Assembly (NCBI GenBank): GCA_018669475.1
Contig: JABHCC010000209.1
Location: 1-64,000 of the forward strand
DNA: 64,000 nucleotides
Origin: Bacteroidota bacterium
GTDB taxonomy: Bacteria > Bacteroidota > Bacteroidia > Bacteroidales > UBA12481
Direction: 5' to 3'
Part shown: positions 18,169 through 23,992 of the stretch, one piece after another
Position numbering within the stretch: the stretch's first letter is position 1
Layout: every line of letters starts with the position of its first letter
Made by a program: the position numbers and the translations under genes
The notes under the pieces: model-generated
Database searches by the model: none
The model's input: the letters and a program-made list of their open reading frames with translations, nothing else
What the model was told of the DNA's origin: nothing

Positions 18169-20085
18169 ATGCGTATGAAAAAAATTACTCTATTATTAGC
18201 AGCTATTGGCTTGCTTATTGGCTCGTCAGGCATGAGCCAATCCACAAGTTTAAAAGGTAATGGGGAGACCTTTTACAAAACAACTTTTGATTGGGGAAAT
18301 CCTGCAGATGAAAAAGGCTGGACTGCCCCGGAGGGGTTCACAATGGAAGATCCTGATGATATTGGGTATAATTTCCACTGGTATCCCAATGACTCTCTCA
18401 TTTCTGAATGGACCCGGGAAATACCCTGGCAATCATCATCAAAAGAAGATGGTCATCTGGCCCTCTTTTTAGGTATGTATACAGGCTATGATGAAAACTA
18501 CTCAGATGTTAATAACTCTATTGTATTCCCACTCTTTGACTGCTCAGATAAATCATCTGTTATTGTGCGTTATGAAACAAGCTTTATGTGCTATTCATCA
18601 GGATGGGATATGCTTGTCGAAGTTTCAAATGATGATGGAGTTCACTGGGCTGCCTATGATGCAGGCTTTAGTTGTGGGCATAAGGATCGCCCGGATGATA
18701 TTAGTACTGGACAGGTTGCAATTTTTGAAACGAACATTTCTGAGGTAGCATCTGGAATGGCTAACGTCATTATTAAATTGACATGGAGAGGTACATCTGA
18801 TTATTTCTGGTTGATTGATGATTTTGAACTTGCTGAAGCATATAATAATGACCTGCGTATGAGGCATTATGTTCTTGAGTGGGATGATGGGGATGAGAAC
18901 ACCATTGAAAGTTTTATTCATAATATTCCAATTTCTCAAGTGGGTGGTTCATTTAAGAATTTCGAGGCAGGAGTTTATAATTTTGGTGAAGAGGACCAGT
19001 GGGGTACTTATTTTGAGCTAGATATCAGTAAGAATTCGCAAAGTGTTTTTAACCAAACCACTGAGACTGATATCATGCCTACTTTGTATCTTGATACAAT
19101 GCGGGTAGCTGAACCCTATACTCCAACTGAATTCGGACATTACAAAATCACCTATGATTTCAAGCAAGAAGCAGAGGAGCAAACTCCTGAAAATGATATG
19201 GTAGATGTGTTTTTCAATGTTACCGACAGCGTATATTCTCGTTGTGATGACACTTCAGAAGAGTCTTATGTTTATGGATTTGAGGCTTACGGGGAAGAAG
19301 GTGTACCAAATGAGCAACACTTCGTTGGATCACAATTCCCAATATATGGTGATTGCGAAATTGACGGGGTAGCTGTTTATGTTGCTGGAGGAATGGCGGA
19401 TGGACAAATTGAGTTCAGGGGTGCGCTATACTGGTTACCACCTGAAGATGAGGACCCTGAAGGTCTCGGAGCTATAGAGTGGTTGTTATCAGATATTGTT
19501 TTACTGGATTCCAGTATGTTTGATACATGGGTATATTTCCCATTTGATAAAGATGGTGAATCTGAATTCCTCTTTGAAGGTGACCGGGTTTATGCTGGTA
19601 TTGAATACTGGAACTGGCATACTGAAGTACGACCATATAAACGATATGAGAACTTTAAAATCGGATCGGATGTTGGTGTGAAATTGAATGATCCTGTATC
19701 GATTGTAAGAGGTGGTGCTGAGGGTTCATGGGATTCAGGTACAACTGTGACCAAGCGTAAATTTATGGTTAAACTATTCCTGAACGACCATAGTAATGTT
19801 ATTGACGGTGTGGAGCAGAATCGTGCATTGAGTTCATTAGCTCAGAATTATCCTAATCCATTTGTTGGAAGTACTGAAATACCTTATGAATTGGGTCTGG
19901 CAAGTGATGTAACAATTGATATTAAAGATCTTACCGGAAGAGTTGTTATGCAGATTGATGAAGGAACACAGCCGGCAGGACAGCACAACTTTGTCCTTAA
20001 CGCAACTCAGCTTGAAGCAGGTGTATATTTCTATACCCTCAAAGCTGGTCAGTTTCAAGAAACCAAGCGTATGATTATTAACTAG
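18169..20085 (+). CDS. secreted protein with T9SS type A sorting domain
   Basis: A 638-residue exported protein. An N-terminal signal peptide (cleavage probable after GMSQ at about 24) is followed by an adhesin- or MAM-like beta-sandwich (about 35-225, with SDYFWLIDDFEL at its end), a middle beta-rich region rich in Asp and Glu, and a C-terminal type IX secretion sorting domain (about 555-638) beginning NYPNPF and ending GVYFYTLKAG...KRMIIN. T9SS should carry it through the outer membrane and attach or release it. No catalytic residues are evident; it may bind a polymer or host surface. ATG at 18169 was chosen; ATG at 18175 is equally possible. A strong terminator follows the stop. Confidence 0.88.
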   Translation: MRMKKITLLLAAIGLLIGSSGMSQSTSLKGNGETFYKTTFDWGNPADEKGWTAPEGFTMEDPDDIGYNFHWYPNDSLISEWTREIPWQSSSKEDGHLALFLGMYTGYDENYSDVNNSIVFPLFDCSDKSSVIVRYETSFMCYSSGWDMLVEVSNDDGVHWAAYDAGFSCGHKDRPDDISTGQVAIFETNISEVASGMANVIIKLTWRGTSDYFWLIDDFELAEAYNNDLRMRHYVLEWDDGDENTIESFIHNIPISQVGGSFKNFEAGVYNFGEEDQWGTYFELDISKNSQSVFNQTTETDIMPTLYLDTMRVAEPYTPTEFGHYKITYDFKQEAEEQTPENDMVDVFFNVTDSVYSRCDDTSEESYVYGFEAYGEEGVPNEQHFVGSQFPIYGDCEIDGVAVYVAGGMADGQIEFRGALYWLPPEDEDPEGLGAIEWLLSDIVLLDSSMFDTWVYFPFDKDGESEFLFEGDRVYAGIEYWNWHTEVRPYKRYENFKIGSDVGVKLNDPVSIVRGGAEGSWDSGTTVTKRKFMVKLFLNDHSNVIDGVEQNRALSSLAQNYPNPFVGSTEIPYELGLASDVTIDIKDLTGRVVMQIDEGTQPAGQHNFVLNATQLEAGVYFYTLKAGQFQETKRMIIN

Positions 20086-20106: not shown

Positions 20107-20137
20107 AAAAGCCCCGTTTGTCGGGGCTTTTCTTTTT
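20107..20137 (+). terminator. intrinsic terminator
   Basis: GCCCCG at 20111-20116 pairs with CGGGGC at 20122-20127 around a TTTGT loop, with A4 before and T4CT5 after. It lies 22 bases after the stop of the T9SS cargo gene and isolates it from the downstream pair. Confidence 0.92.
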
Positions 20138-20181: not shown

Positions 20182-21078
20182 ATGAATATCCCTGTAATTT
20201 GTGTTGAAGAGAATACTTTGGCTGAAGCATACGAAAAAGCATTAATCAGATTGTATAAAGAAGGAACAAAGTTTCAAACCCAGTATGATAAGCCGGGGGA
20301 TCCTTTAAGCCTTGACTGCACTGTCAATATTACCATTATTGAGCCTGAGACCGACCCCATGATTCATAAGGCTTTCCCGGGTGGGATTGATGATCTGAAA
20401 GAATATGTTCTTGAACTGAAAGGTTATAAGGATGGCTGGGTGAAAAACATGAATGATCCCGGGGATACTCGCTGGGAATATACCTATCATGGGAGACTCG
20501 CTGACTATGGTTCATGGAAAGAACTTTCTGATCTTGCCGACAAGGATTCATCACATATTGCCGGATTCAGGGTTGACCAGATTGAGGCTGTTATTGCAAA
20601 GCTTGTGGACCAACCTTTTACACGTCAGGCTCAGATGATCACATGGATGCCAAATATTGACACACAAGTTTATGATCCTCCATGCTTGCAATCTCTGTGG
20701 TATCGTATTCTTGAGGACAAGGATGGAGTTTATTGGTTGAATTCTAATATACGGTTCAGAAGTAATGATGCCTGGGGAGCCAATTTTATGAATATGTTTG
20801 GATTTGTTCAGTTTTCTAGAGAGGAAATCGCGGATGAAATACAAAAAAGGACTGGGAAAAAAGTGAAACTTGGACGAATGAACTGGCAGGCTGATTCTTT
20901 TCATATTTATGGCAGAGATATTGAAAAAGCAAAGGGAATGCTGTTCGATCGGGTTGATAGCATGAGCTTTGAAGAGAGAACATATAATTTCCATGATGAA
21001 TTCATCCAGGAAATGTATCAGATGGCAGAGCCTGTTATTTTGCAAAAAATCAAAGATTATCAAGAAAGAAATGCATAA
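20182..21078 (+). CDS. thymidylate synthase-fold pyrimidine (hydroxy)methyltransferase
   Basis: A 298-residue cytoplasmic protein of the thymidylate synthase superfamily but not the ordinary ThyA. Seen: catalytic Cys168 in DPPCLQSLW; RSNDAWGANFMN, which aligns with the RSxD...N motif of ThyA and keeps both the Asp and the Asn that read the pyrimidine; DSFHIYGRDI, equivalent to the His/Tyr that bind the sugar; YTYHGRL near the folate site. The N-terminal part resembles archaeal TS and the CMP-hydroxymethylases (MilA/BcmA type). It could make dTMP, or 5-hydroxymethyl-(d)UMP or -(d)CMP. The next gene overlaps by eight bases and encodes a nucleotide N-hydrolase, which favours linked nucleotide chemistry. 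Superfamily firm, exact reaction open. Confidence 0.8.
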   Translation: MNIPVICVEENTLAEAYEKALIRLYKEGTKFQTQYDKPGDPLSLDCTVNITIIEPETDPMIHKAFPGGIDDLKEYVLELKGYKDGWVKNMNDPGDTRWEYTYHGRLADYGSWKELSDLADKDSSHIAGFRVDQIEAVIAKLVDQPFTRQAQMITWMPNIDTQVYDPPCLQSLWYRILEDKDGVYWLNSNIRFRSNDAWGANFMNMFGFVQFSREEIADEIQKRTGKKVKLGRMNWQADSFHIYGRDIEKAKGMLFDRVDSMSFEERTYNFHDEFIQEMYQMAEPVILQKIKDYQERNA

Positions 21079-21487
21079 AAAAATATATTTCTGCGGATCA
21101 ATAAGAGGAGGCAGAGAGGATTATAAAATTTATCAGGAACTGATAAACTACATCTCGGATTTTGCAATTGTGCTTACAGAGCATATTGGTGATGTGAATG
21201 TTTCGGGTGATCATTTATTAAGTGACATTGAAATTCATGATCGGGATATGGATTGGCTCAGGGAATCAGATATGATTATTGCTGAGGTTACGCAAACAAG
21301 TTTGGGAGTGGGATATGAGATAGGAAGGGCTATTGAATTGGGGAAACCGGTAGTTTGCCTGTACAGACAGCAAAAAGGAAGGCCTTTGTCAGCGATGATT
21401 ACAGGCTCTTCAGAAATTCAAACCTTTAGCTATTCTGATATGAAAGAGGCAAAAGAAATTATTTTTAATCAGCTGAAAACAAACTGA
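21071..21487 (+). CDS. DNPH1/Rcl-type 2'-deoxynucleoside 5'-phosphate N-hydrolase
   Basis: A 138-residue enzyme close to mammalian DNPH1 (Rcl), which cleaves the base from deoxynucleoside monophosphates, notably 5-hydroxymethyl-dUMP. The shared motifs are YFCGSIRGGRED near the start, VLTEH at about 34-38, IAEVTQTSLGVGYEIGRA at 70-87 (Glu83 aligns with the catalytic Glu), and a GRPLSAMI segment. The start is ATG at 21071, eight bases inside the preceding gene, since an upstream reading would lie wholly inside that gene. The overlap makes a translationally coupled pair with the thymidylate-synthase-like protein, as in MilA/MilB-type pairs. It acts on soluble nucleotides in the cytoplasm. MilB-like ribonucleotide activity is an alternative. 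Confidence 0.88.
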   Translation: MHKKIYFCGSIRGGREDYKIYQELINYISDFAIVLTEHIGDVNVSGDHLLSDIEIHDRDMDWLRESDMIIAEVTQTSLGVGYEIGRAIELGKPVVCLYRQQKGRPLSAMITGSSEIQTFSYSDMKEAKEIIFNQLKTN

Positions 21488-21502: not shown

Positions 21503-23992
21503 TTATCTGACTATGCCAAGTCCCTTATATTCTTTTACCTCTCCTGTTATTTCATCAACTACTCTAATAGTATATTGCCCTTTTGAAAAAACAAAAGCCT
21601 TGAAAGTGTTGCTCTCAGGACGAAGAGCATATACCAGTTCACCAGTATTTTCAGAATACAATTGGAGATACTGCTGTTCTGGATTCAATTCAATTTCCTT
21701 CAGATAAGCAAGTTTCTTTTTACCGTAATTATCTAATTGACCTATCGTTACTGGCCAACCAGGAAACTGATTGTCAGAGTTTTCGCGATCAGCCATGTTG
21801 GCCAGAAAACGAAACGCTTCAGACTGGATAGTTCTATTATCAGTATTGAAATGAATCAGCCCGAATCCGGATGAACATTTCTGAGCCTTTACATATCTGT
21901 TAGGATCTGAGGTGTTATCTTCAGGATTTCCAACAGCATATACATAGCTTGGATGACCAAAAGGATCCCTGTATTTTCCAGTATTGGGAAGATTATGTTC
22001 AGGGCGTTCAGAGATTGGCCAGGCCAGCTTTTCAGGCTGGAAACGTCTTTGATACCCAACTGAAATGGCAGGAGTGCAAAAAGCCCATCCAGCATCCCGA
22101 TAGTTTTCAGTACCGTATTGAATCATTGATGGTAAGTGCTGATCACCGGCAATATGAAAGGAGAAACATGAACGCATTACTTCAACTGCCTCATTTCGAG
22201 CTGTCATCGGCCATCCTCCTGAGTCAAGATCTGCGAAAAGAACCATTTTATTTCCGCCATGATGAGTGGCAATATTGCTGAAGATCGTCTGACTGAGCAA
22301 ACATTTCATTTTAGCCCCACTCCAGTTTTGAGCCCAGTTTTTGAGAAAATTCATTTGTCTGTCTCCTAATAACTGTAAGCCGGGAGGATTTATTCTGGAT
22401 AAATTTCTGATCGTATCTTTAATGTGATCTTGTCTTCCCGGCCAATAAGCCACAGTATTTGGTCCGGATTTAAACATGCGGTCACCCACTATGGCAAAAC
22501 TGACATCCCCATATAACAGCTCTGTGTAATAAGGCGGAATACCCTGATCCATTGGGGTGGAATCGTAAGGGTCGGGGAGATGACTGCACTGAGTGAGATG
22601 AACAACGCTTACCATTTTGGCCGGCTCAATGTACCCACCACTGGTGCCATGGAATTTGCTGAATGTTTCCTGAGATATCTCCCTTCCACCATCGCCCCAC
22701 AGATTACCCTGAAAAATATCATGATCGTCAGGTATGGTGATGGTGGGACGATCTTTCATAAGATCACCAAAGGCCCATCCGAACATATACCATTTACCCA
22801 AATAATTCAAAATAGCTGCATCAGCAGGAAAGCGGACAATTCCGTAGCCACCATTGCCTTCATACAATTGATCACCTGAAAAATACAGCATGTCAGGATT
22901 AGTTTGTTGCAGGTTTTCAACAAGTGGGCGATATGGGAAGCCATAGTGATACTGACAAGTCAAACCTCCCAGAACAAGAGTCTTCTTTTTGGGTTCTTTA
23001 CGAATAATTCCCTGCCGGAGGTGCTCTGTTTCCTCTCCGGATACTGATTTTTCCCGGTAGATCAGTTTATAATCTTTGTCGATAGCACTATTCCAATTAT
23101 CAATTGCAAAAACGGCTGTCCGGCTATCAGGATTCATTTTTACTGATTGATTTATCTCCCAAACATCGTTTTCAAGAAAGTGCAATTCAATATACTGATT
23201 GTCTTTTGGTCCTAGCGGTGGCATTTGAACGCTCAGTTTTAGTTTGTTCTTACTCAGGGTATACATTGACCAGAGGATAGGTCCGAAAGCATTTTCTTCA
23301 TGTGATATCACCGCCGTACCTGACAAACTCAGGTCATCAAACCAAAATCGGGTGTTTCCGCTGTATTTTTTCCCTGATGGATGATGATTAACTAAAGCAA
23401 TAGCCCCTGCAAAAGATTCTATGTCATCTTTTTCAAGAATAGTAGTACTGTTTCCATTCTCGTCACTTGCTTGTAATCGTACTACAGCATGGCCATCTTT
23501 GTACAAGCCATCAATATGCAAGGTGAAATCTTTCAAATCAAATTTATCCGGAATAGTACTGGATAATTCTCCCAGGAATAATTGCCGATCAGTATCTATT
23601 CCTACATTCAGACCAGTTCCGAAAAAGGTCAGGCTTTTTATATCCATGTCGGTATCATCCTGCATACCGATAATCAATCCTCCTGATCCTGTTTTTTCAC
23701 CGTCATTCAAAACACCCATCCGGAGGTTAATCAAAAACTCACCTTTCTGATCGAGCAAATGAGTTAGAAGAACCGTTTTGTTGTTGTTTTTTACACCAGT
23801 ACATTCGAGACGGCCTTCATGAATCATCCAGTTCTCTATCGGAACCGACCAAAAATTTTCATTTATCCAGTTTCGATTATTTTGTGCATCAAAATTTTCA
23901 TTGAAACTGTCCTGAATCGTGCAAGCGGAAGACACAAGCATCAGAATAAGCCCGCTGAGTATTAAAAACGATCTGGATTTCATATTCTTCAT
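21503..23992 (-). CDS. PhoD-like metallophosphatase lipoprotein
   Basis: An 829-residue lipoprotein (lipobox SSAC, Cys24). Residues about 30-225 form a LamG-like or concanavalin-type beta-sandwich with a DDIESFAGAIALV strand and a WFDDL segment; the catalytic PhoD-like domain covers about 330-740, with YFSGDQLYEG, TIPDDHDIFQGN and HIAGDQHLP as metal-binding motifs. It probably cleaves phosphomono- or diesters at the cell surface or periplasm. The gene starts directly at the stop of the LolA-like gene, so it ends the minus-strand operon beginning near 30308. Substrate unknown. The start at 23992 or 23983 (second Met) cannot be separated. Confidence 0.88.
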   Translation of the reverse strand: MKNMKSRSFLILSGLILMLVSSACTIQDSFNENFDAQNNRNWINENFWSVPIENWMIHEGRLECTGVKNNNKTVLLTHLLDQKGEFLINLRMGVLNDGEKTGSGGLIIGMQDDTDMDIKSLTFFGTGLNVGIDTDRQLFLGELSSTIPDKFDLKDFTLHIDGLYKDGHAVVRLQASDENGNSTTILEKDDIESFAGAIALVNHHPSGKKYSGNTRFWFDDLSLSGTAVISHEENAFGPILWSMYTLSKNKLKLSVQMPPLGPKDNQYIELHFLENDVWEINQSVKMNPDSRTAVFAIDNWNSAIDKDYKLIYREKSVSGEETEHLRQGIIRKEPKKKTLVLGGLTCQYHYGFPYRPLVENLQQTNPDMLYFSGDQLYEGNGGYGIVRFPADAAILNYLGKWYMFGWAFGDLMKDRPTITIPDDHDIFQGNLWGDGGREISQETFSKFHGTSGGYIEPAKMVSVVHLTQCSHLPDPYDSTPMDQGIPPYYTELLYGDVSFAIVGDRMFKSGPNTVAYWPGRQDHIKDTIRNLSRINPPGLQLLGDRQMNFLKNWAQNWSGAKMKCLLSQTIFSNIATHHGGNKMVLFADLDSGGWPMTARNEAVEVMRSCFSFHIAGDQHLPSMIQYGTENYRDAGWAFCTPAISVGYQRRFQPEKLAWPISERPEHNLPNTGKYRDPFGHPSYVYAVGNPEDNTSDPNRYVKAQKCSSGFGLIHFNTDNRTIQSEAFRFLANMADRENSDNQFPGWPVTIGQLDNYGKKKLAYLKEIELNPEQQYLQLYSENTGELVYALRPESNTFKAFVFSKGQYTIRVVDEITGEVKEYKGLGIVR

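Follow-up and report, generated by a model that had tools for sequence, protein, structure and literature searches.

Enzymes that hydroxymethylate pyrimidine nucleotides are known from phages and from antibiotic gene clusters. In the mildiomycin (MilA/MilB) and bacimethrin (BcmA/BcmB) systems, a hydroxymethylase of the thymidylate synthase (TS) fold is paired with an N-glycosidase of the deoxyribosyltransferase superfamily. Hydroxymethylation returns tetrahydrofolate (PMC6400193; PMC9931769), and in the T4 dCMP hydroxymethylase the water needed for the final step is considered to be activated by Asp145, whose change to Asn (D145N) abolishes activity (PMC6400193). A signature proposed for such hydroxymethylases combines Asp or Glu three residues before the catalytic Cys with Ser or Thr two residues before the equivalent of Tyr94 (PMC6400193). 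For the substrate, Asn177 is the uracil determinant (PMC8670742; PMC6400193), and Ser167 and Arg126 are the deoxyribose determinants, for which MilA, with its ribose preference, has Ala176 and Lys133 instead (PMC5175136). In humans, 5-hydroxymethyl-dUMP is prevented from entering DNA by DNPH1, which hydrolyses it (PMC12699328).

We analyzed a gene pair in a 64,000-nt stretch of a Bacteroidota contig (hereafter, the window), for which a first-pass annotation had proposed an overlapping TS-fold protein and DNPH1/Rcl nucleotide N-hydrolase; the coordinates, the families and the 8-nt overlap were all as it described. The first gene (20182-21078, + strand, ATG start) encodes a TS-superfamily protein of 298 aa, predicted to be a dUMP 5-hydroxymethylase. 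The second (21071-21487, +, with its ATG at 21071) encodes a DNPH1/Rcl-type 2'-deoxynucleoside 5'-phosphate N-hydrolase of 138 aa, and the two frames share exactly 8 nt (21071-21078, +), including the TAA of the first, an overlap common to the relatives at loci L024 and L025. Compared with L024, the TS-like protein is 85% identical in amino acids (dN 0.09) and the hydrolase 67% (dN 0.27), with dS saturated or ~2.9; on this basis we consider both genes real. A Rho-independent terminator-like hairpin (20107-20131, +; 10-pair stem with 6 G-C pairs and a T-rich tail) separates the pair from the upstream gene and reads likewise as a terminator on the opposite strand, although two such hairpins were found versus 1.2 by chance, so that it is a consensus match only. 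Because of this hairpin and because the next gene 3' of the pair (21503-23992) lies on the other strand, the pair seems to stand alone as a unit of two genes. The upstream gene (18169-20085, +) encodes a 638-aa, probably secreted protein, and its family occurs in at least two copies at the same place in the relatives at L014, L015, L017, L018 and L019. We found no plasmid match, PADLOC gave no match to a known defence family above chance, and neither a biosynthetic cluster nor a hypermodification gene was found near the pair.

The TS-like protein scores 32.8 bits against the Pfam model for thymidylate synthase (PF00303), above the cut-off of 24.3. The catalytic Cys168 and RSxD...N residues claimed for it are present, the latter as an RSND motif (residues 193-196) and Asn204, and Cys168, Arg193, Ser194, Asp196 and Asn204 are invariant in 81 of 81 cellular copies; its other key residues are E74, W98, Y102, R148, D165, H241 and Y243. 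We aligned the family with the T4 dCMP hydroxymethylase, the SPO1 dUMP hydroxymethylase, the RB69 5-hydroxy-dCMP synthase, MilA and three ThyAs (E. coli ThyA served as a yardstick, as human DNPH1 did for the partner, and the PDB matches support both independently). The equivalents of Glu58, Cys146, Arg166, Ser167, Asp169, Asn177, His207 and Tyr209 are kept. The residue three before the catalytic Cys is Leu in the three ThyAs and Asp in all 81 cellular copies, as it is in the T4 and SPO1 hydroxymethylases and in MilA; here it is Asp165, within D165-P-P-C168 (codons at 20674-20685, +, computed as 20182 + 3*(165-1)). At the positions where ThyA has His147, Leu143 and Trp83, the TS-like protein has Leu169, Asp165 and Thr101. 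The C-terminal closing tail of ThyA is absent as well, and the C-terminus is helical; Trp83 and the tail are likewise missing from all 81 cellular copies. In ThyA, the bulky Trp83 and the C-terminal tail shield the active site; with Thr aligned at the Trp83 position and no closing tail, the TS-like protein resembles the T4 enzyme. The T4 half-signature Ser94-x-Tyr96 is matched only approximately, with Thr101 one residue before Tyr102.

At the substrate determinants, the equivalents of Asn177, Ser167 and Arg126 are of the dUMP type in 81/81 cellular copies, and SPO1 gp29, annotated as a dUMP hydroxymethylase, has Arg-Gln, Asp and Asn at the same sites as the TS-like family. These residues probably point to dUMP hydroxymethylation, which narrows the generic hydroxymethyl-pyrimidine nucleotide envisaged by the first-pass annotation to one derived from dUMP. 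Our literature search found no assayed enzyme of this clade.

Structure and phylogeny place the protein in the same company. The best structural match (VIA-align) of its AlphaFold (AF2) model, which has a pLDDT of 89, is MilA (Z 19.6), followed by the flavin-linked phage dCMP hydroxylase AfhB (18.6), with ThyA at 16.9 or lower; MilA is also the best PDB match of the wider-family profile, and the analogy to MilA/MilB drawn earlier is borne out on both counts. In the tree, ThyA is split from the TS-like family and the hydroxymethylases with 99/95 support, the deeper branching among long branches being unsure. The protein therefore falls outside ThyA rather than clustering within it, in agreement with its description as a diverged member of the fold.

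It is also not the only thymidylate synthase homolog in its genome. An ordinary ThyA (413 bits) with a DHFR neighbour lies on another contig, G000:C59, and no ThyX was found in the source genome. Among 50 ortholog-carrying genomes, ThyA is present in 34 and ThyX in nine of the other 16, which leaves 43 with either enzyme, Maribellus, Draconibacterium and Pontiella isolates among them; the seven without both are all metagenome-assembled genomes (MAGs), in which gaps are expected. Since the source genome has a separate ThyA and 43 of the 50 ortholog genomes have ThyA or ThyX, it is not the TS-like protein that serves the cell as thymidylate synthase. The separate ThyA, together with the missing ThyA tail and Leu143/Trp83, leaves unsupported the earlier suggestion that the pair couples dTMP synthesis to disposal of a side product. 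A FolA-type DHFR is missing from five of the ThyX genomes that carry the TS-like gene, Pontiella sulfatireligans among them; such genomes suit a reaction that returns tetrahydrofolate, because a dihydrofolate product would be awkward there. As a candidate identity, ordinary ThyA was rejected on the tree, the residues and the separate ThyA in the genome. The ThyA and DHFR genes adjoin at G000:C59:125392-126677, the usual thymidylate pair, and a second DHFR gene lies at G000:C22:27716-28138.

The second protein is DNPH1-like, as had been noted: it matches rat and human DNPH1 (Rcl) in the PDB with E values of 1e-37 to 1e-34, as against 0.06 for MilB; the DNPH1 alignment spans 124-127 residues and preserves the catalytic Tyr, Asp, Glu and Ser. 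The aligned Tyr, Asp and Glu are retained across the DNPH1-like proteins; here they are Y6, D59 and E83, whose human counterparts we take to be Y24, D80 and E104. A DNPH1 gene lies near the TS-like gene in the window and in 20 of 80 fetched loci, and all 21 linked loci belong to one Bacteroidota clade of 29 members (SH-aLRT 99), no linkage being seen outside it. Eight of the 21 have DNPH1 downstream in the same direction; in the other 13 the genes converge tail to tail, in many cases with an overlap of 23-35 nt; two of the linked pairs are 2.7 kb apart. Neighbour clustering over the 80 loci gave no family besides DNPH1 in more than 11, and on this ground a conserved operon beyond DNPH1 was rejected; nor does the TS-like gene have a kinase, transferase or nuclease as a constant companion. 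Across 393 genomes of the order, seven carry both genes, three the TS-like gene alone, 13 DNPH1 alone and 370 neither (Fisher p 3e-8, a value inflated by shared descent, as all linked pairs belong to a single clade and only 4 changes are seen on the tree). The expectation that DNPH1 neighbours would be non-random thus holds within one clade (21/29, in both orientations) and fails elsewhere: the pairing with DNPH1 is real but clade-limited. Neither gene needs the other, since 31 of the 50 TS-like genomes are without detectable DNPH1 (nine of the 19 positive ones have it unlinked) and 13 of the 20 DNPH1-positive genomes of the order are without the TS-like gene.

Taken with the residues and the model, we give about an even chance to a reading in which the TS-like enzyme makes 5-hydroxymethyl-dUMP and the DNPH1-like enzyme cleaves it. 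The TS-like protein, a chromosomal member of a phage-type branch of the superfamily, would take up dUMP and methylene-tetrahydrofolate, and Cys168 would attack C6; the exocyclic methylene would then be quenched by a water activated by Asp165 and not by hydride, so that dUMP, methylene-tetrahydrofolate and H2O would yield 5-hydroxymethyl-dUMP and tetrahydrofolate. The DNPH1-like hydrolase would in turn cleave 5-hydroxymethyl-dUMP to 5-hydroxymethyluracil and deoxyribose 5-phosphate, making the pair a make-and-cleave module, the deoxyuridine counterpart of MilA/MilB in the cytidine series. While the analysis shows the two genes, their families, the conserved residues, the position outside ThyA and the linkage in one clade, we infer the reaction, its substrate, the coupling and the purpose, which may be supply of the base or guarding of the nucleotide pool against what the TS-like enzyme makes. 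Because no DNPH1 was detectable in most TS-like carriers, these would seem to tolerate or use the product, and DNPH1 would be an extra control that one clade has gained.

In the main rival reading, the TS-like protein is a methanogen-type alternative thymidylate synthase making dTMP, and DNPH1 lies beside it by accident or to clean the pool. Among named models, that of the methanogen enzyme (TIGR03283) does fit the protein best, with a full-length match that includes the N-terminal strand, and the dUMP-type Asn and the seven genomes without both ThyA and ThyX would fit; however, the score of 104.3 bits does not reach the cut-off of 174.5. TIGR03283 also gathers the SPO1 dUMP hydroxymethylase (84 bits) and the RB69 5-hydroxy-dCMP synthase (69) above a phage ThyA (54), and is therefore non-specific. 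Methanogen TS is itself presumed to make dTMP, archaeal TS enzymology having had no follow-up (PMC9931769). The archaeal-virus protein vir249, the closest to TIGR03283 (136 bits), shares the CLQ motif of the TS-like protein and also the Asp, which may thus not exclude methylation, in a comparison that draws on this one homolog of methanogen TS; a viral scan with vir249 as query found nothing. With ThyA or ThyX also present in 43/50 genomes and five ThyX genomes lacking FolA, we regard a methanogen-type synthase as unlikely.

The gene's history appears to involve phages. Phage orthologs (42-67% identity) lie on large phage contigs that also encode terminase, tail tube, UvsX, DNA polymerase and ribonucleotide reductase, and in the tree the majority of them branch below most of the bacterial proteins. 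Bacteroidota copies are 66-70% identical to those of other phyla, and occurrence is patchy, with three strong matches in 395 genomes of the phylum. The branching, the cross-phylum identity and the patchiness suggest phage capture and later horizontal spread as the simplest account. One phage ortholog (L113:4992-7142, +) has an intein-like insert exactly at the catalytic Cys (C-FAAGTLVSTPSG ... HN-C) in an ORF of 717 aa, and a 332-kb phage contig (L106:3001-6899, +) carries an ordinary ThyA, the TS-like gene and DHFR within 4 kb.

This phage connection and the patchy distribution would also accord with a phage-derived precursor enzyme through which DNA would come to contain 5-hydroxymethyluracil or one of its derivatives, perhaps as protection from phages or restriction, with DNPH1 tuning the pool. 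There is a precedent for defence in chromosomal gene sets that include a TS domain and a 5-hmdU DNA kinase and were validated as defensive (PMC13092281), but nothing in our analysis ties the TS-like gene to them. The absence of an accompanying kinase, transferase or nuclease speaks against this role, and a monophosphate-destroying hydrolase works against incorporation. A search of 27 genomes or records, drawn from the TS-like carriers and phages, gave no 5-hmdU DNA kinase, with no control giving a match either. We consider the DNA-precursor role improbable. A flavin-dependent 5-hydroxylase acting on dUMP, like AfhB or the RB69 5-hydroxy-dCMP synthase, is highly improbable: the second structural match (9iqu/9iqc, with Z 18.6 and an rmsd of 2.8 over 201 residues, a riboflavin/FAD-dependent dCMP enzyme by its title) favours it, but the sequence match is weak (E 0.005), and the Asp, Asn, Asp and Tyr of the TS-like family are replaced in RB69 by Glu, Asp (cytosine), Asn and Phe.

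Extending the make-and-cleave reading beyond the window, we tentatively propose, with rather less than even confidence, that many Bacteroidota, Kiritimatiellota/Verrucomicrobiota, Ignavibacteria and Fibrobacterota carry a chromosomal, phage-derived dUMP hydroxymethylase, that 5-hydroxymethyl-dUMP is a deliberate metabolite in them, and that the DNPH1 of the one clade cleaves it. If true, bacteria would have their own equivalent of the human pathway for 5-hmdU sanitation, one in which the enzyme that makes the substrate is known; and a widespread chromosomal enzyme of the dUMP type, in cells that also have ThyA or ThyX, would add a new cellular origin for 5-hydroxymethyl-dUMP. Human DNPH1, a close homolog of the partner, is a proposed drug target in BRCA-deficient cancer. 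Judging from sequence and model, the TS-like enzyme is real, conserved and probably mis-labelled as thymidylate synthase; such labels in these genomes may be wrong, and phage-to-host gene capture is likely.

The pair can be placed among known systems as follows. It resembles MilA/MilB and BcmA/BcmB in joining a TS-fold protein to a hydrolase, and MilA in the Asp three before the Cys, but it has Asn204, Ser194 and Arg148 (dUMP-type) where MilA has Asp, Ala and Lys (CMP-type), its hydrolase is of the DNPH1 and not the MilB type, and no antibiotic gene cluster is seen. With ThyA it shares the catalytic Cys, RSxD and the equivalents of Asn177, His207 and Tyr209. The methanogen-type TS is its closest named model, from which it differs in falling below the equivalog cut-off and in having bacterial hosts with their own ThyA or ThyX. 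AfhB and the RB69 5-hydroxy-dCMP synthase have the same fold, with a cytosine-type Asp and other active-site changes. Unlike mammalian DNPH1 (Rcl), the hydrolase gene adjoins a TS-like gene in one bacterial clade. The phage dUMP hydroxymethylase SPO1 gp29 has the same Asp before the Cys, the Arg-Gln and the Asn177 equivalent, whereas it sits on another branch of the tree, is 383 aa long and belongs to a phage that replaces thymine by hydroxymethyluracil.
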